21,542 nucleotides of DNA, from the IMG/VR virus record IMGVR_UViG_3300033147_000096, positions 1 to 21,542 of that record; one strand, written 5' to 3'. The DNA comes from a virus. Below the pieces are notes generated by a model that did not search any database, was not told the origin of the DNA, and saw only the letters and a program-made list of their open reading frames with translations. Of this stretch, positions 2,339-21,197 are shown piece by piece (position 1 is the first letter of the stretch; every line of letters begins with the position of its first letter). The translations under genes and the position numbers were made by a program.

Positions 2339-4012
2339 GTGAGTTTTCTACAACGGCTCGCCGCCTTCCTAGACCCGGCCGGCACGTCTCGAGGTTCGTT
2401 AGAGGACCCCGGCGTACCGCTCTCCTCGCCTAATATCCTCTCGTATCTCGGGGTAAACCCGGTCGAGTCAGGCGTCGAGGTCACGTCGACAACCGCTATG
2501 CGGCTCGCCTGCGTGTTTGCATGTCTACGTGTCCGGGCCGAAGCGCTTGCGGCGCTACCCTGGGGGGTCTACCGGCGCCGTGGCGGCTCTCGAGTGGAGG
2601 TAGACGGGCATCCGCTCGGCGCTCTCCTGCGAGATATGACGAAGCGCGAAGCGCTCTCTATGCACGTCGACGGATGGGGTAACGGGTACCTCGAGCGGGT
2701 CGACTCGAGCTCGGGGGAGCTCCTCGAGCTCGATATGCTCTCGCCCGACCTGACGGGGGCCCGAAAGACAGCCGCCGGCCGGCTGTATTACGTGACCTGG
2801 ACCGAGGACCTCGGTAGCGAGCGAGCGATACCGGCCGACTCGGTCGTTCACGTCGCCGGGCCGGGATGGGACGGGGTTACGGGTTACTCGCTCCTCGCTA
2901 TGCATGCGGAGAGTATCGGCTACGGTATCGCCGCTCGAGATACCGGCGCTCGCCTAATGCGGAACGACGGCCGACCTCGAGGAGTTATCGAGGTCGCTCA
3001 CCGCCTGCAGGTCGGCGCCGGGGAGGGTATTCGCGATGAATTCGAGGCGGCTCAAGCCGGGGCAAACCAGGGGCGGATAGCCGTACTCGGGGCCGGCTCG
3101 AAGTATCAAAATATCTCGTTACCGCCTGACCAACTCCAATATATCGAGCAAATGAATCTGGCCTTACTCGACGTGGCTCGAATCTTTCTAACGCCGCCGC
3201 ACAAAATCGGATTTCTACGCGACGCCGGCGATAGAGCGAACATTGAGCATGAAAATTTACGCTTCGCGACCGACGTGCTCGTTCCTGCAAGCCGCCGGCT
3301 CGAGCTCGCCGTCGACGCTAAGTGTTTTAGCGAGAGCGAGCGCCGGGCCGGCTTCTTTACCAAAATCGACTTACGCGGGATGCTTCGCGGCGACTATAAA
3401 AGCCGAATGGAGGGGTACCGTATCGGTCGGGAAATGGGGCTCTATAACGCCGACGAGATACGAGCGCTTGAGGACGACGGGCCTATCGGGGGCCGGGCCG
3501 GCGAGACGTACCTCGTTCCGCTTAACCTGGTCGACGCCGCCGAGGAGCCGAAGGAGCCCGAGCCGATACCGGCCGCTTTGGTACCGGGGACCGAGCCGAA
3601 GGAGCCCGACCCGGAGCGCTTCCGGCCGCTATTCGTCGACGCCGCTCGTCGGCTCCTGCACCGGGAAGCCGAGGAGCTCGCCGCGATTGGGGGGCACGTC
3701 GGCCGGTACGGGGTCGCGGAACGGACGGCCGAGCGGTTCCGCCGGCTATGGGTAGGTCAACATCGGCGGCACCGGGAAACCTTTACGCCGCTCCTCGAGG
3801 CTATCGGCGACGGGTACGTAATCGGGCGCTCTGATACGTACGTACGCCGACACGCTGAGCTCGCCGAGCGGGTTATACGAGAGCACCGGGGCAACGCCCG
3901 AGCGACTGGCGAGGCTTTGGCGGCTCTCGCCGTCGGCCTGGTCGACGAATACGCCGAGCCGCTCGCCGAGCTCGAGCTCGAGGGGAAACAATGGAAGACG
4001 AGCGACGAGTAA
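2339..4012 (+). CDS. portal protein, HK97 family, with a C-terminal extension
   Basis: A 557-residue protein forming the dodecameric portal at the capsid vertex. The HK97-type core spans about residues 30-395: repeated small-residue helix (AMRLACVFACLRVRAEAL, 53-70), LPWGVYRR (73-80), WGNGYLERV (113-121) and the conserved VARIFLTPPHKIGFL (279-293). A Pro/Glu linker follows (about 400-425, with EPKEP twice), then a charged helical extension (426-557) seen as an appendage in some HK97-type portals. The GTG start at 2339 is chosen because no better start precedes the core; it has no clear ribosome-binding site, only GGTGGGAA inside a hairpin. The end overlaps the protease gene by 22 nt. Confidence 0.92.
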   Translation: MSFLQRLAAFLDPAGTSRGSLEDPGVPLSSPNILSYLGVNPVESGVEVTSTTAMRLACVFACLRVRAEALAALPWGVYRRRGGSRVEVDGHPLGALLRDMTKREALSMHVDGWGNGYLERVDSSSGELLELDMLSPDLTGARKTAAGRLYYVTWTEDLGSERAIPADSVVHVAGPGWDGVTGYSLLAMHAESIGYGIAARDTGARLMRNDGRPRGVIEVAHRLQVGAGEGIRDEFEAAQAGANQGRIAVLGAGSKYQNISLPPDQLQYIEQMNLALLDVARIFLTPPHKIGFLRDAGDRANIEHENLRFATDVLVPASRRLELAVDAKCFSESERRAGFFTKIDLRGMLRGDYKSRMEGYRIGREMGLYNADEIRALEDDGPIGGRAGETYLVPLNLVDAAEEPKEPEPIPAALVPGTEPKEPDPERFRPLFVDAARRLLHREAEELAAIGGHVGRYGVAERTAERFRRLWVGQHRRHRETFTPLLEAIGDGYVIGRSDTYVRRHAELAERVIREHRGNARATGEALAALAVGLVDEYAEPLAELELEGKQWKTSDE

Positions 4013-4605
4013 CGACTTGGGATAACTCGCTAATCGGGCGGTTCACCGTCGACCCGGCGGCCGAGCTCCGGGTCGCCCCCGACGGGACGCTCGAGGGGTA
4101 CGCCGTCGTTTACGACGCTCTCTCGCTCGACCTGGGCGGCTTTGTGGAGAGGTTCGCTCCGGCGTCGGTCGAGCTCGCCGGCGACGTGCTCGCGACCTTT
4201 AACCATTCCGTAGGCTCGATACTCGGGCGCTCGAGCTCGGGGACGCTGGCGCTCGAGCTCAACGAAACGGGGCTACGGTACCGGGTCAAGCTACCCGATA
4301 CCGGCGCCGGCCGGGACGTGAGGGAGCTCGTTCGCCGCGGCGACGTACGGGGCTCGAGTCTCACGTTTGACATGCTGGAAGAAAAATGGGGCAAGGTCGG
4401 CGAGGAAGCGTTACGGACCCTAACCCGAGTCAAGGTTAAAGAGCTCGGGCCGGTTACGCTTCCGGCCTATCCCGACACGACGGCGGCGGTACGCTCGCTA
4501 ACAGCTAACTGGGGAGGTTCCTCGCGAGGCGACCAGGTGCGGGCCGCTAACATGCGGCGGGCTCGACTTCGATACCTCGAGCTCGAGATTCGACGAGGGG
4601 AGTAA
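3991..4605 (+). CDS. prohead maturation protease, HK97/U35 type
   Basis: A 204-residue serine protease expected to cut the scaffold (delta) domain off the capsid protein inside the prohead. Family features: GYAVVY near residues 36-41, FNHSVGSILGR at 70-80 with the likely catalytic His72, GSSLTFDM at 121-128 with the likely catalytic Ser (122 or 123), and the ELGPVTLPAYPDT segment at 151-163. The ATG overlaps the portal end and has an AGGGGAAA ribosome-binding stretch. Next downstream is the capsid gene, its substrate, 2 nt away. Intact, normal length. Confidence 0.92.
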   Translation: MEDERRVTTWDNSLIGRFTVDPAAELRVAPDGTLEGYAVVYDALSLDLGGFVERFAPASVELAGDVLATFNHSVGSILGRSSSGTLALELNETGLRYRVKLPDTGAGRDVRELVRRGDVRGSSLTFDMLEEKWGKVGEEALRTLTRVKVKELGPVTLPAYPDTTAAVRSLTANWGGSSRGDQVRAANMRRARLRYLELEIRRGE

Positions 4606-4607
4606 TC

Positions 4608-5915
4608 ATGGCACTAGAGATTAGACGACTTGACGACCAGGCGAAGCGAGCGCTCTCGGAAGCTCGCGGCCTGCTAGAGCTCGCGACTCAGGAATCCCGC
4701 GATCTGACGAGCGAGGAGCAAACCCGGTTCGACGAGCTCTCGTCGGAATCGGAGCGCTGCGTGTCGATGCGTGAGCGACTGAAAGAGCTCGAGCAATCGG
4801 AGCGTCGCGACCTCGAGGCTACCGAGCTCGAGCGACGCACTCGGGAGGCGGCGGCCCGAAAGGGAAAGGCCGACCCGGAGAAAGGAAAACGCGACTACTC
4901 GGCGGCGTTCATGGCCTGGGCTCGAGGCGGCATTACGGCGCTCTCGGGTGAGCAACGGGCGACGATGGAGCGGGGGTTTAAGCCGCTCGACGTGGCGGCG
5001 GGTGAGCTCGGCGGGGAGCAGCGGGTACTGACCGGTAGCACCGGCGGCTCGCCGTACGGCGGGTACACGGTACCCGAGGATTTCATGGGGCAAGTAGAGA
5101 AAGTGATGGCGCAATACGGCGCAATCCTTTCGGCGCCGACGGGCAAGTTCAACACGTCGACGGGCGCGCTAATGCCGTGGCCGACTTCCGACGACACGGC
5201 TAACGCCGGGGAGCTCTTGAGTGAGACGAGCGGCACGGCGGCGGTTACGGCCGGCGACGTCGTATTCGACCGGATCGTATTCACGAGCTATACGCTCTCG
5301 AGCAAGATGGTAAAGGTCCAGCGGCAGCTACTACAGGACGAGGGCGTTAACTTGACCTCGTTCCTCGCCGACGCACTCGGCGAGCGGCTCGGGCGCGGTA
5401 TGGGCTCGTACTGCACGGTAGGTTCCGGTAGCGCGCAACCGACCGGTATCGTTACGGCGGCGGCCGACGCCGACTTAGACTTCTCACTGTCCGGCACGAA
5501 ACCGGACTACGCCGACTTCGTCGACCTGGTACACGCCGTCGACCCGGCGTATCGGGGGCAAGCGTCTTACGGGCTCATGTTCAACGATACCTGCCTCGTC
5601 TCGCTGCGTAAGCTCCTCGATACCACGGAGCAACCGATTTGGAATCCCGGCGGTATGGCGAATAACGCGCCGCCGACTTTGCTCGGCGTACCGTACTGGA
5701 TTAACCAGGACATGCCGGCGCCGACGGGTACGAATAAAGCCTATCTGGTCGGCGACCTCAGCAAGTTCAAAATCCGGCGCGTACAGCCGCCGATTATGCT
5801 GCGGCTCGAGGAGCGATATGCAGAGCTCCTGCAGGTCGCCTTTTTGATGTTTACCCGGTTCGACTCAAACCTCGTAAACGCTAACGCCGTTATGTACGCA
5901 TCGGTCGCGACCTAA
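4608..5915 (+). CDS. major capsid protein, HK97 fold
   Basis: A 435-residue shell subunit. Residues about 5-82 are a charged predicted coiled coil, the scaffold-like delta domain, followed by a Lys/Ala-rich linker (83-95) and a variable segment. The capsid domain begins near 137 (VLTGSTGG...GGYTVPEDF) and runs to the end, with the usual helices, beta sheet and a C-terminal strand around RFDSNLVNANAV. Protease cleavage should fall between about 95 and 140; the exact site cannot be read. Start ATG with AGGGGAG just upstream. Delta domain, protease and portal are adjacent, the HK97 arrangement in which no separate scaffold gene is needed. Confidence 0.94.
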   Translation: MALEIRRLDDQAKRALSEARGLLELATQESRDLTSEEQTRFDELSSESERCVSMRERLKELEQSERRDLEATELERRTREAAARKGKADPEKGKRDYSAAFMAWARGGITALSGEQRATMERGFKPLDVAAGELGGEQRVLTGSTGGSPYGGYTVPEDFMGQVEKVMAQYGAILSAPTGKFNTSTGALMPWPTSDDTANAGELLSETSGTAAVTAGDVVFDRIVFTSYTLSSKMVKVQRQLLQDEGVNLTSFLADALGERLGRGMGSYCTVGSGSAQPTGIVTAAADADLDFSLSGTKPDYADFVDLVHAVDPAYRGQASYGLMFNDTCLVSLRKLLDTTEQPIWNPGGMANNAPPTLLGVPYWINQDMPAPTGTNKAYLVGDLSKFKIRRVQPPIMLRLEERYAELLQVAFLMFTRFDSNLVNANAVMYASVAT

Positions 5916-8184: not shown

Positions 8185-9114
8185 ATGGAAAACCATTTGG
8201 GAATTGGGGTAGAGAGTGTCTGGGATACGCCTATCGCGCCGGATATCTGGCTCGAGATTCTATCGGAAGCGATACGCCGGGAGCCGTCGTATCAACCGGT
8301 AGAGAGTATTCGCTCGGTCGGGCCGAGGGCGTACTCGCTAGGCTCGGTCGTATCGCGGGGGCCGTTCCGGGCGATCTGCAATTACCAGGATCTACCGTCG
8401 CTCGTCTTTCTCATGTTCGGCGATTCCGACCTCACCGACGCCGACCCTATCTATACCCATACGATACCTCAAGCATCGGCGCCGGCTTTCGTACGGCCGC
8501 CGCTAACCTTCGAGGTTCATCGAGACGAGGGCGGCTCTGGGCTCGCTCACAAATACTCGGGCGGTACGTTGACCGAGCTCGGTATTACGGTCGCCGTCGA
8601 CGAGCTCGTCGAGTGTACGGGCGCTATGCTCGGGTCGGGTACCGAGGGCGTCGGCTCGCCGAGTACGCCGGTGTATAACGCTTTCGACCTGATACAACCG
8701 ACCGAGGCCGTCGTCGAGTTCGACTCGACCGAAATTGACGTCGAGCGGTTCTCGGTTTCGATGGCGTGGTCGGCCGACGAGCCGAAGAAGCTCGGGGCGA
8801 CGACGCTGGCCCGACAACCGAAGGACGCCGGCTCTCTCATGGTTACGGGGTCGTTTACGCTCCTCGAGCATAACGCGGCGATCTGGACGAAGTTCGACAA
8901 CTTTAGCGAGGCGGTTCTACAACTCAAGGCGACCGCCGCCGCCGCTCGCGACTTCGAGGTTAACCTCGGTAACTGCGTACTCAACCAGGCGACGCCGGCG
9001 CTCGACGGGCGCAACGTGCCGAAACCTACGGTCGAGTTCTCATGCCGGCTCGACGATTCGCTCCTCACGCCGGTTCAATTTGTGGGTATTAACGGGCTGG
9101 CTACGCTACCGTGA
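8185..9114 (+). CDS. major tail tube protein
   Basis: A 309-residue, beta-rich protein. It begins ENHLGIGVESVWDTP, a start typical of tail tube proteins that line the DNA passage, and contains regular strands such as FRAICNYQDLPSLVFLMFG and EVHRDEGG...HKYSGGTLTELGITV. The ATG has AGGAG at 8171-8175, a strong signal for an abundant protein. It is followed by the assembly chaperone and tape measure genes, the standard neighbours of a tube gene. Longer than the lambda tube protein, possibly with an extra surface domain around residues 160-250. The stop overlaps the next GTG (GTGA). Confidence 0.8.
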   Translation: MENHLGIGVESVWDTPIAPDIWLEILSEAIRREPSYQPVESIRSVGPRAYSLGSVVSRGPFRAICNYQDLPSLVFLMFGDSDLTDADPIYTHTIPQASAPAFVRPPLTFEVHRDEGGSGLAHKYSGGTLTELGITVAVDELVECTGAMLGSGTEGVGSPSTPVYNAFDLIQPTEAVVEFDSTEIDVERFSVSMAWSADEPKKLGATTLARQPKDAGSLMVTGSFTLLEHNAAIWTKFDNFSEAVLQLKATAAAARDFEVNLGNCVLNQATPALDGRNVPKPTVEFSCRLDDSLLTPVQFVGINGLATLP

Positions 9115-13963: not shown

Positions 13964-14439
13964 TGGCGTGGGAGACTATCGGCGACGCCGCCGTCGCACC
14001 GTACGCACCGATAACGGCGCGACTGATACGGAAGCTACGCGACCGGTACGCCGCGCTCGCCCCGATGCTTACCCTTTTCCCTTTTCCATGGAACGGGTCG
14101 ACGAGCTCGACGACGGCGGTACCGCTCTCGACGGTCGCGGTATATCTCGACGACCGGTTAATAGGACCGGGCGGTACCCGGATAACCGTAGCCGTGTCGG
14201 CTTCGTACTCGTCGGGCGACGAGCCGCCTAACCCTATCGGGCGCACTCATATTCGACTTGACGGTACCGCCGGCGTCGTCGAGTTAGCGACGCCGGGTGA
14301 TAACTACGTTGGCGACCTGGTCGTCGAGGAAGTGTTAACCCCAGGGGTGTATACGCTCGAGCTCATGGGGCGGGCCGCCCATGCGACGCACTCGCTAAGC
14401 GTTACGCCGTACGAGGTTATGCTCGAGAGGATCGAATAA
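13963..14439 (+). CDS. small tail-tip protein, paralogue of the previous gene
   Basis: A 158-residue protein with an ATG overlapping the preceding stop (TAATG). It begins AWETIGDAAVAPYAPITARL then IRKLRDRYAAL, a variant of the module at the start of the 13466 gene. The C-terminal part is beta-rich with THIRLDGTAGVVELATPGDN and a closing VYTLELMGRAAHATHSLSV. It likely sits with its partner at the tail tip. Enzyme motifs are absent. Its own stop overlaps the spike gene start. Confidence 0.55.
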   Translation: MAWETIGDAAVAPYAPITARLIRKLRDRYAALAPMLTLFPFPWNGSTSSTTAVPLSTVAVYLDDRLIGPGGTRITVAVSASYSSGDEPPNPIGRTHIRLDGTAGVVELATPGDNYVGDLVVEEVLTPGVYTLELMGRAAHATHSLSVTPYEVMLERIE

Positions 14440-16385: not shown

Positions 16386-16639
16386 CACGCTGGACCGGGC
16401 CGGCCGTCGATAAGCTCAAGGTCGAGCTCGAGGCGGCGCAAGAAGCTATCGAGACGGTTCAGGCGTCTAACGTAGCCTTTACGCCGTACTCGACGCTCTC
16501 GAGTATTACGGTTCAGGCCGCGATACAAGAGCTACTCGACGAGGGGGGCGGCGGCGGCGGCGGCGACGCTCGTCTCGACGGCGGCCGGGCTGACTCAACC
16601 TATACCGCCGACCAGGTACTCGATGGAGGGGGCGCCTAA
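16382..16639 (+). CDS. short fibre-linker protein with poly-Gly
   Basis: An 85-residue protein that I start at the TTG overlapping the peptidase stop (TTGA), as for the large terminase. It has a helical/coiled segment (VDKLKVELEAAQEAIETVQA), then VAFTPYSTLSSITVQAAIQE, a seven-Gly run and an ending (ARLDGGRADSTYTADQVLDG) of a type often seen near fibre attachment points. The stop forms TAATG with the fibre gene, so it may act as an adaptor for the fibre. A longer reading from 16157 would only add residues translated out of frame over the peptidase gene. Confidence 0.6.
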   Translation: MTRWTGPAVDKLKVELEAAQEAIETVQASNVAFTPYSTLSSITVQAAIQELLDEGGGGGGGDARLDGGRADSTYTADQVLDGGGA

Positions 16640-17508
16640 TGGCCGATATCATCCAATTTAGACGAGACACGGCGGCGGCCTGGACGTCGGCCGACCCGAC
16701 GTTAGCGGCCGGGGAGCTCGGGCTCGAGACTGATACCGGGAAGCGTAAATTCGGAGACGGCGTAACCGCCTGGGTATCGCTCGGGTACGAGGCCGGCGAC
16801 GCCGACGCTATTCACGATAACGTCGACGGCGAGATTAACGCTCTCACCCTGAAAGCCTCGCCGGTCGTCGGGGATATGCTGCTTATCGAGGACTCGGCGG
16901 GGACGTTCGACAAGCGTAAGTGTACGGTCGAGTCGTTACCTATCTCGGCGGCCGACGCCGACGCTATCCACGATAACCAGGCCGGCGAGATACAGCCGCT
17001 CACGCCGAAAGCCTCGCCGGTCGCCGGCGACGTGTTACTCCTCGAGGACTCGGCGGCGAGCTACGCGAAAAAGAGTCTATTGATATCGGCTCTCCCGGCG
17101 GGTACACCGGGCGCCGACTCGATTACGAATACCGAGCTCGCGAACATGGCTCAAGATACGCTCAAGGGGCGTACGACGGGGGCCGGTACCGGCGACCCGG
17201 TCGACCTGACGAAAGCGCAAGCGCTCGCGATACTCAACGTAACCGACGGGGCCGACCCGACGAGCGCGAACGAGACGTCGCACGGGGACGTCGTACAAGA
17301 CGGCGACTTCGGGAGTAACGGGTACCTCAAGCGTACCGGGGCCGGGGCGTATGGCGTACAGGCAACGCCGATACCGACGGCCGACACGGCGGCCAAGTGT
17401 ACCGACGCCGCCGCCGACGAGACGAGCGCGAACGAGACGTCGCACGGGAACCTAATTCATGACGACGTCGACGGGGAGCGAGACGTCGCACGGGAACCTA
17501 ATTCATGA
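16639..17508 (+). CDS. tail fibre / receptor-binding protein, N-terminal part (frame broken)
   Basis: A 289-residue open frame. Residues 1-50 form the fibre head common to many phages (IIQFRRDTAAAWTSADPTLA then AGELGLETDTGKRKFGDG). Next come two copies of a ~46-residue module built on IHDN..GEI..LT.KASPV.GD.LL.EDSA, then a second module type (ADSITNTELANMAQDTLKGR...GSNGYLKRTGAG). The natural frame ends inside a perfect 46-bp tandem duplication, after which 10 or so unrelated residues lead to TGA at 17506-17508. Removing one copy joins the frame to the ORF that follows. So this is the 5' part of a longer fibre gene, damaged in this genome or in this assembly. Confidence 0.8.
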   Translation: MADIIQFRRDTAAAWTSADPTLAAGELGLETDTGKRKFGDGVTAWVSLGYEAGDADAIHDNVDGEINALTLKASPVVGDMLLIEDSAGTFDKRKCTVESLPISAADADAIHDNQAGEIQPLTPKASPVAGDVLLLEDSAASYAKKSLLISALPAGTPGADSITNTELANMAQDTLKGRTTGAGTGDPVDLTKAQALAILNVTDGADPTSANETSHGDVVQDGDFGSNGYLKRTGAGAYGVQATPIPTADTAAKCTDAAADETSANETSHGNLIHDDVDGERDVAREPNS

Positions 17509-17983
17509 CGACGTCGACGGGGAGTTTACCGGGCTCGCCGATAAGGCGTCGCCGGTATCGGGCGACCTGCTACTCCTCGAGGATTCCGCGGCGAGCGGGG
17601 CTAAGCGTAAGCTCGAGGTCGGCAACTTGCCGGCGGGTACACCGGGCGCCGACTCGATTACGAATACCGAGCTCGCGAACATGGCTCAAGATACGCTCAA
17701 GGGGCGTACGACGGGGGCCGGCACCGGCGACCCGGTCGACCTGACGAAAGCTCAAGCGCTCGCGATACTCAACGTAACGGACGGGGCCGACCCGACGAGC
17801 GCTAACGAGACGTCGCACGGGGACGTAGTACAAGACGGCGACTTCGGGAGTAACGGGTACCTCAAGCGTACCGGGGCCGGCTCATACGACGTGCAGGCGA
17901 CGCCGATACCGACGGCCGACACGGCGGCCAAGTGTACCGACGCCGCCGCCGACGAGACGAGCGCGAACGAGACGTCGCACGGG
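17095..17983 (+). repeat. 354-bp near-identical direct repeat in the fibre gene
   Basis: Copy A is 17095-17448 and copy B 17630-17983, a shift of 535 bp. I count about 12 differences by eye, seven of them clustered near 17344-17364, so roughly 97% identity. Both encode the module running from PAGTPGADSITNTELANM to DETSANETSHG. The 18-mer AACGAGACGTCGCACGGG occurs in the middle and at the end of each copy (17269, 17431, 17804, 17966), plus one variant at 17477. Confidence 0.9.
17433..17524 (+). repeat. perfect 46-bp tandem duplication that shifts the fibre frame
   Basis: Positions 17433-17478 are repeated exactly at 17479-17524. Each unit starts CGAGACGTCGCACGGG and ends GACGTCGACGGGGAG. Forty-six is one more than a multiple of three, so the second copy moves the frame by one base, and the ORF before (codon phase of 16639) and after (phase of 17459) differ by exactly that. 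Removing one copy restores a continuous frame. Confidence 0.92.
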
Positions 17984-18229
17984 CCGCTCGAAGTCGATTA
18001 CGGTCGAGAGCCCGACGGCGAGCGAGGACATAGCCGTATTCTTTACCGACCGGGATATTACGCTCACCGCTATCCGGGCCGTAATCATAGGGACGTCGGT
18101 CGCCTGGTCGCTATACCACGGGAGCTCGAGAGCCTCGGTAACGAATCTAATCGACTCGAATACGACGACGTCGACGACGACGGGCGACGATATTACGTCG
18201 TTTACCGATGCGACGATACCGGCCGATAG
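17459..18229 (+). pseudogene. tail fibre, middle part displaced by a frameshift
   Basis: An open frame of 256 residues whose ATG lies in the first copy of the tandem duplication and is probably not a natural start. From 17479 to 17983 it reads as the continuation of the fibre: SHGNLIHDDVDGEFTGLADK, a third copy of the KASPV.GD.LLLEDSA module, then the 354-bp repeat module. From about 17984 to its stop the text is unlike any fibre (His/Arg/Tyr/Asp-rich) and is a shadow of the true C-terminal domain, which lies one base over. So only the first two thirds is genuine protein text. I treat it as a segment of the 16639 gene, not as a separate gene. Confidence 0.7.
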
Positions 18230-20203: not shown

Positions 20204-20277
20204 ACATCGGGCCGGCGACCGTCGTACGGTGTACTCCCACTACGCCTAAGCGGGGGTCGTCGCGCCCGGTTCTAGCC

Positions 20278-20392
20278 TGTGGAAAAGCCTGTGGAAAAGT
20301 TGTGGATAAGTAGCAGAAAGGAGGCGCCGCTAATGTCCCGTGTTAAGGTCTGCGAGTTTTCCTCAAGATATCCGCGAACTTATCCACAACTT
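20278..20392. other. DnaA-box cluster with 15-bp inverted repeat, candidate replication origin
   Basis: Within the 129-bp non-coding stretch 20204-20332 and the start of the RusA gene there are three same-direction 9-mers: TGTGGAAAA at 20278 and 20290, and TGTGGATAA at 20301 (the complement of TTATCCACA). A fourth box in the opposite direction, TTATCCACA, is at 20380. The two perfect boxes belong to a perfect 15-bp inverted repeat: AAGTTGTGGATAAGT (20297-20311) and ACTTATCCACAACTT (20378-20392). Spacing of the tandem boxes is 11-12 bp, about one helix turn. TTATCCACA is the standard DnaA box; very GC-rich actinobacteria usually prefer TTGTCCACA. The repeat could also fold in RNA around the RusA start region. 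The rest of the stretch (20204-20277) shows nothing I can name. Confidence 0.55.
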
Positions 20393-20794
20393 ACTAACAG
20401 GCGATATCGGGTCGAGATACAGTATCCACCGGAAGCTATCCGGCCTAACGGGCGGGCTAATAGATGGGCTCGAGCGAGGGCTATAGCGTCGTACCGTAGG
20501 GACTGTGGATGGAGCGCTCGAGAGACGCTCTCTAGCAAGCCGCCGCCGCTCATTAAGGCCGCCGCTATATCTATCTATGTACCGGCGACCAGGCGGCGCA
20601 TGGATACCGACAACCTAATAGCCTCGCTCAAGGCGGCATTCGACGGCTTCCAGGACGCCGGGCTACTGGCCGATGATAGGGCGCTCGACTTCACTATTCG
20701 ATACACCGACCAGGTGCATAAGCATAGGCTCGTACTGTACGTGACCGAGATATCCACGCCCCCTACTGCTGCTAGTCTCTCCCCTAATGCATAA
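20333..20794 (+). CDS. rusA: RusA-type Holliday junction resolvase
   Basis: A 153-residue nuclease that cuts four-way DNA junctions, probably to free branched DNA before packaging. The entry YPPEAIRPNGRANRWARARA (31-50) matches the RusA N-terminal pattern. The core MDTDNLIASLKAAFDGFQDA then GLLADDRALD holds the acidic residues expected for metal binding (Asp91, Asp93, Asp104, Asp114, Asp115) and Lys100. The ATG at 20333 is chosen because AAAGGAGG lies at 20317-20324; an earlier in-frame GTG at 20279 would translate the DnaA-box repeats. It overlaps the HNH gene by 8 nt. Confidence 0.85.
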   Translation: MSRVKVCEFSSRYPRTYPQLTNRRYRVEIQYPPEAIRPNGRANRWARARAIASYRRDCGWSARETLSSKPPPLIKAAAISIYVPATRRRMDTDNLIASLKAAFDGFQDAGLLADDRALDFTIRYTDQVHKHRLVLYVTEISTPPTAASLSPNA

Positions 20795-21197
20795 GGGTAA
20801 GCATCTTTGCAGAGGGTGTAAATCGGTACCCGTTGTGATCGGGACGGTATGCTCGGCCTGCAAGCAAACCCGGCCCGACCTGGTACGACCGAGCGCAAGC
20901 GCTCAAGGGTACGGCCGAGCATGGCAGCGGCTACGGCGGGTGATACTCCTGCGGGATTCATGGTGCGTAGCGTGCGGGCGCCGACCTGCTATCGAGGTCG
21001 ACCATATCCTACCGAAGCGCGCCGGCGGGCTCGACGAGCTCGCTAACCTGCAGGGATTGTGTAAGCCGTGTCACTCGAGGAAGACGGCCGGCGAATGCTT
21101 ACAATCGAGCTCGAGGCCGGCGGGAGGGGGGGCCAAAGCTCAAATGGAACCTTCTGCAGAACGCACTCCCAGGGAATACACACGTCGGCGTAAATAA
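20787..21197 (+). CDS. HNH endonuclease, packaging-associated type
   Basis: A 136-residue protein. An N-terminal zinc site (Cys8, Cys11, Cys22, Cys25) is followed by GYGRAWQRLR (41-50), a common lead-in for phage HNH proteins. The HNH core has CVAC (60-63), VDHILPKRAGG (71-81; Asp72, His73), Asn88 in NLQGLCKPCH and CKPCH (92-96). The C-terminal tail is basic and low-complexity. In HK97-like phages such HNH proteins work with the terminase and are encoded beside it. Here the terminase genes are at the other end of the window, consistent with a circular genome. The start overlaps the RusA end. Confidence 0.85.
   Translation: MHKGKHLCRGCKSVPVVIGTVCSACKQTRPDLVRPSASAQGYGRAWQRLRRVILLRDSWCVACGRRPAIEVDHILPKRAGGLDELANLQGLCKPCHSRKTAGECLQSSSRPAGGGAKAQMEPSAERTPREYTRRRK

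Follow-up and report, generated by a model that had tools for sequence, protein, structure and literature searches.

The window analysed in this work (one whole IMG/VR virus record of 21,542 bases) contains, in front of the gene for a RusA-like Holliday junction resolvase, a cluster of four DnaA boxes that is very likely a binding site for host DnaA, judging from its sequence and geometry. The single likeliest function of this cluster is that of a DnaA-dependent replication start site, to which we assign a probability of about 40%, below even odds, and which we rank above regulation of the RusA operon.

DnaA boxes, inverted repeat and surrounding DNA

Three of the boxes are arranged head to tail, with start-to-start spacings of 12 and 11 bp, and the fourth is placed 70 bp beyond them in the opposite orientation (Table 1). 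All four fit TTWTCCACA and they are the only exact TTWTNCACA sites in the 21.5 kb, packed into 111 bp (20278-20388), against a mean of 0.13 sites per window expected from dinucleotide-preserving shuffles. None of 1000 such shuffles had even two boxes within 111 bp, so the cluster is beyond chance, and the original prediction of three TGTGGA(A/T)AA 9-mers plus a reversed one was accurate in both positions and spacing. The boxes starting at 20278, 20290 and 20301 form double boxes, in the sense of two same-strand TTATCCACA-like boxes separated by 2-3 bp. In vivo, E. coli DnaA binds pairs of boxes that are 2 or 3 bp apart and binds single boxes poorly (PMC11317965). The agreement of these gaps with those of the window, whose host may be another bacterium, is the strongest argument for a DnaA site here. 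The double boxes of bacterial chromosomes (in E. coli oriC, DARS2, polA, purH and others; PMC11317965) are the same 9-mers in the same orientation with 2-3 bp gaps, although here they are found in phage DNA, as three in a row plus an inverted one, in a putative DnaA site.

Table 1. Positions of the DnaA boxes, the inverted repeat and other features of the window
Feature	Positions	Strand	Description
DnaA box 1	20278-20286	minus	TTTTCCACA; plus-strand letters TGTGGAAAA
DnaA box 2	20290-20298	minus	TTTTCCACA; plus-strand letters TGTGGAAAA; 3-bp gap to box 1
DnaA box 3	20301-20309	minus	TTATCCACA, perfect consensus; plus-strand letters TGTGGATAA; 2-bp gap to box 2
DnaA box 4	20380-20388	plus	TTATCCACA; orientation opposite to boxes 1-3; within the RusA reading frame
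Inverted repeat, left arm	20297-20311	plus	AAGTTGTGGATAAGT; perfect 15 bp; imperfect extension from 20287
Inverted repeat, right arm	20378-20392	plus	ACTTATCCACAACTT; perfect 15 bp; imperfect extension to 20402
Longest non-coding gap of the contig	20204-20332	none	129 nt by our gene list; contains boxes 1-3
Least stable 40 bp near the array	20357-20396	none	0.11% of contig windows as unstable or more
RusA ribosome-binding site	20317-20324	plus	AAAGGAGG; in the loop of the inverted repeat
RusA-like Holliday junction resolvase	20333-20794	plus	phrog_34, E 1.5e-19
HNH endonuclease	20787-21197	plus	PF01844, E 1.3e-10; downstream of RusA
Protease	3991-4605		Separate gene
Capsid	4608-5915		Separate gene

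The array had been placed in the longest non-coding stretch, which is correct for boxes 1-3, box 4 being coding. The segment 20294-20393 is among the AT-richest 0.17% of the 100-bp windows of the contig. Like a bacterial oriC with the basal unwinding system (PMC8287927), the array has tandem boxes beside relatively unstable DNA, but it differs from it in three respects. Firstly, although the DNA beside the boxes belongs to the least stable 0.11% of the contig, its AT content is only 60-63% (63% in the best 30 bp), and no strong AT-rich unwinding stretch of the oriC type is evident at the array. Secondly, no DnaA-trio run was found there by the rule of a box followed, after 0-16 bp, by at least three NAN trios, an element also missing in about 15% of the bacterial genomes examined (PMC8287927). 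Thirdly, the GC-skew check that had been suggested for an origin at 20.2-20.4 kb revealed no minimum or turn near 20.3 kb; along the contig, the cumulative skew climbs in step with the direction of the genes, and after detrending it has its minimum at 14271 and its maximum at 8361. Scans for tRNAs, Rfam families and terminators gave nothing useful.

The perfect arms of the inverted repeat, separated by a loop of 66 nt, are the inner part of an imperfect repeat of 25 nt (20287-20311 and 20378-20402, 84%). The two boxes that had been predicted to lie inside the perfect repeat are boxes 3 and 4, while box 2 is only in the imperfect extension, and the repeat does enclose the ribosome-binding site and the start (ATG at 20333) of RusA, as was claimed. 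A perfect inverted repeat of at least 15 bp within 130 bp appeared in 4 of 200 shuffles, which makes the repeat modest evidence when taken by itself; the strong evidence comes from the boxes. The repeat could work at the RNA level, as a stem-loop of the mRNA that surrounds the ribosome site and start codon of RusA and tunes its translation, the likeness to DnaA boxes being incidental. The RNA stem is indeed more stable than expected (z -4.1, with none of 200 shuffles equally stable), but the ribosome site is in the large loop, outside the main stem, the repeat has no Rfam match, and the spacing and orientation of boxes 1 and 2 would be left unexplained, which makes this explanation very unlikely in our view.

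The single DNA strands also fold better than shuffles, both of them (z -3.1 and -4.1), which is consistent with a hairpin priming site similar to the A-site of the ABC-primosome, whose hairpin stem contains a DnaA box (PMC6127211). Folded on one strand into a stem with a duplex DnaA box, the repeat could let DnaA load DnaB there and thereby serve, together with RusA, in lagging-strand or recombination-dependent synthesis. The window has the box within a perfect 15-bp stem, and four other viral array loci, among the matches listed, contain an inverted repeat of at least 13 bp with a box in the arm. However, it differs from the known A-site in its 66-nt loop, long for a hairpin that has to form in SSB-coated DNA, and in the additional tandem boxes outside the stem; moreover, most phage arrays contain no inverted repeat. 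We give this possibility equally poor odds.

The RusA gene, its neighbours and the extent of the contig

The RusA protein contains the acidic motifs D-x-D-N and D-D, its DTDN and DD aligning with those of E. coli RusA and relatives. Residues 1 to ~26 (20333 to ~20410) form an N-terminal extension missing from two aligned RusA relatives, and both box 4 and the right arm of the inverted repeat fall within this extension, where the constraint imposed by the protein is likely weak. Upstream, 23 bp separate the end of box 3 from the RusA ATG. This location, together with that of boxes 1-3 in the longest inter-gene gap, is also what would be expected of a gene switch, in which DnaA bound to the leader boxes represses or activates the RusA-HNH transcript (perhaps extending into the terminase genes) and ties the expression of resolvase and packaging functions to DnaA-ATP or copy number, with no origin involved. 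Most DnaA-bound double boxes of E. coli are upstream of genes (nrdA, polA, purH and dnaA among others; PMC11317965), but the switches of that bacterium usually have two boxes and not three plus an inverted one, box 4 is inside coding sequence, and a consensus scan found no promoter-like site in the region. Such a switch is, on balance, somewhat unlikely, though it ranks close behind the start site.

No close relatives were detected by blastn of the region or by tblastn of RusA against cultured phages. Searches of viral contigs with RusA, TerL and capsid gave either no match or relatives at only ~30-40% identity; no relative of TerL was found among genomes, nor any plasmid sharing the region. 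A general pairing of RusA with arrays was considered and rejected, since no box cluster lies near RusA at any of the nine RusA loci that a profile search recovered. Three of 50 viral records with arrays contain a phrog_34 RusA, and in the one case whose distance was worked out, it and the array are ~3.4 kb apart.

At its right end the contig carries RusA, HNH and two small ORFs, the second of them truncated by the contig end, and at its left end a truncated ORF, TerS, TerL, portal, protease, capsid and tail genes. The original prediction spoke of a genome with no visible replication protein. This is correct in that none of the ORFs scanned in the record was recognised as a replication protein, although a complete genome is not established, because the record is classified by IMG/VR as linear and without end repeats, and the replication module may simply be missing from the contig. 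On the other hand, the complete genomes of RRH1, Schiebs, Coeur, Decurro, Kels and EricDab end with HNH and have their terminase genes at the start or close to it. By that layout the contig could be an almost entire unit, interrupted between HNH and TerS; its completeness is thus plausible. The open frames truncated by the contig ends (1-136 and 21469-21542) are possible halves of one small protein encoded between HNH and TerS, which hints that only a short stretch is missing from an otherwise almost complete genome. Their frames are not directly continuous (joining them needs at least one extra base), and no informative match pointed to a single gene. Elsewhere in the contig, two adjoining tail-fibre ORFs (16639-18229) contain long near-identical repeats, such as AGTPGADSITNTELANMAQDTLKGRTTG, which suggest a recent internal duplication.

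Box clusters in other phages

Small cultured phages offer a comparison for a lean replication strategy. Ten of them, of 14-18 kb, were considered (RRH1, SallySpecial, Schiebs, McGonagall, GMA5, Coeur, GRU3, Decurro, Kels and EricDab). Three of them, McGonagall, GMA5 and GRU3, do have a replication-related gene, annotated as encoding a DNA polymerase III subunit; the other seven have no annotated replisome gene. None of the ten contains two or more exact TTDTNCACA boxes, and only one contains a single box. The idea that lean phages use DnaA as a general rule was consequently rejected. Such phages get by with no recognisable array of DnaA boxes, so a missing replication gene is in itself no pointer to boxes of this kind. 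Siphophages of the RRH1 type and of clusters AN, EE and CW/DM (14-18 kb) resemble the contig in consisting mostly of structural genes and, in most cases, in having an HNH gene at the right end, next to the terminase, and no annotated replisome; cluster AN has been described as devoid of genes for DNA metabolism (PMC5513430). They differ from it in the absence of a DnaA-box cluster (10 genomes), and the RRH1/AN/EE group also in its fused protease-capsid gene, the two being separate genes in the contig.

In viral contigs, the pattern TGTGGANAAG-NN-TGTGGANAA was found in at least 120 stretches, and 50 of the 120 listed loci have at least three boxes within 150 bp. When the variable positions are A or T (106 listed loci), 35-67 loci are non-coding, depending on the ORF cut-off, versus 11-27 expected by position. 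Among the matches listed, box pairs are therefore over-represented about threefold in non-coding viral DNA (35 versus 11 expected, or 50 versus 17.5, by ORF cut-off). Primase and helicase matches are commoner in the ORFs neighbouring arrays than in control ORFs of the same contigs, a coarse comparison because the families overlap and terminases occur in both the neighbour and the control sets.

A large family of phages related by their TerL (564 stretches found; L161-L240) was fetched by protein and not by boxes, and 44 distinct loci with 900 bp upstream were compared. At least two boxes are present in 26 of the 44, mostly 430-540 bp upstream of TerL, and none in 17 (hand count), indicating that the clusters are maintained but dispensable in this family. 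Ten of the 11 longer records encode a primase or helicase, and primase and DnaB-like genes are present with or without boxes, and members with no cluster exist, so that phages free of replication genes neither require such clusters nor are the only ones to have them. The roughly fixed distance of the clusters upstream of the terminase, with the primase/helicase genes kilobases away, speaks for the gene switch considered above. An alignment of seven loci of the family with invariant boxes was discarded as proof, these loci having been fetched by the box pattern. The members with and without clusters make up a natural comparison set for cluster function.

A blastn search with the array also detected intergenic tandem boxes in Microvirus mar31 and mar39, Arthrobacter phage Tiff81 and Streptomyces phage MeganTheeKilla. 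In mar31 (MZ089777, an ssDNA phage; L153, 1501-1623), ~12 tandem 11-bp units of CCTGTGGAAAA, similar to DnaA boxes, are located between the capsid and pilot genes, and in mar39 (L154, ~1490-1535) four CTGTGGATAAG units adjoin Rep; DnaA-dependent second-strand priming or titration of DnaA are possible roles of these boxes. Tiff81 (50530 bp; L156, ~1975-2025) contains four tandem DnaA-like boxes between its terminal HNH gene and the genome end, near the packaging end, and MeganTheeKilla has tandem boxes in a 1.8-kb non-coding gap. Two further viral stretches (L021, ~1710-1900, and L040, ~1930-2120) share a similar layout, with 11-12 boxes on both strands in less than 200 bp and 13-bp inverted repeats. 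The clusters of the TerL family, mar31, mar39, Tiff81 and MeganTheeKilla resemble that of the contig in their tandem TGTGGA(A/T)AA units, their period of 11-12 bp and their location in non-coding DNA, but have other neighbour genes.

The presence of clusters in many unrelated phages, some with replication genes of their own and one (mar31) with about a dozen units, would also fit a sink similar to datA, which titrates host DnaA and delays initiation of the host chromosome during infection while taking no part in replication or transcription locally. For this purpose four boxes per genome are a small number unless the copy number is high, and nothing in the sequence points specifically to titration; we consider it quite unlikely for the contig.

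The cluster as a candidate replication start site

As a replication start site, the region would be a cis-acting cluster of host-DnaA sites in locally unstable DNA at the head of the RusA-HNH gene group. DnaA would occupy boxes 1-3 and oligomerise on them, and box 4 would close or bound the complex across the AT-richer DNA between 20310 and 20390. With strand opening, this complex would then seat the helicase and the polymerase of the host, starting the replication of a phage in whose record no replication gene of its own was recognised. Of the replication origin originally proposed, the elements that hold are a cluster of DnaA boxes beyond chance, gaps preferred by DnaA and unstable DNA; the local instability, the position of the cluster and the fact that no other initiator was recognised all favour an origin, as do the non-coding bias of comparable viral arrays, the primase/helicase matches among their neighbours and their maintenance in one phage family. 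A turn in skew and a DnaA-trio did not appear, nor was a strong unwinding stretch of the oriC type evident, and these absences weigh against an origin together with the lean phages that have no cluster.

The proposal that a lean phage recruits host DnaA directly fares similarly. The boxes beyond chance, their DnaA-preferred geometry and the locally AT-rich DNA agree with it, but its logic is weakened by the cluster-free lean phages (0/10) and by the TerL family, whose members with clusters mostly have a primase or helicase. In its full form, namely a complete tailed phage of ~21.6 kb, devoid of replication proteins, that brings host DnaA to a four-box origin in the leader and first codons of RusA and couples origin use, resolvase expression and the inverted repeat, the proposal is unlikely. 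The element is a well-formed example of a type that is widespread in phages and not a proven new replication strategy.

This candidate start site bears on how tailed phages without DNA-replication genes start their replication. Tandem DnaA boxes recur in the non-coding DNA of phages across unrelated groups, including the ssDNA microviruses, and are maintained in the one family examined, and they deserve systematic study.
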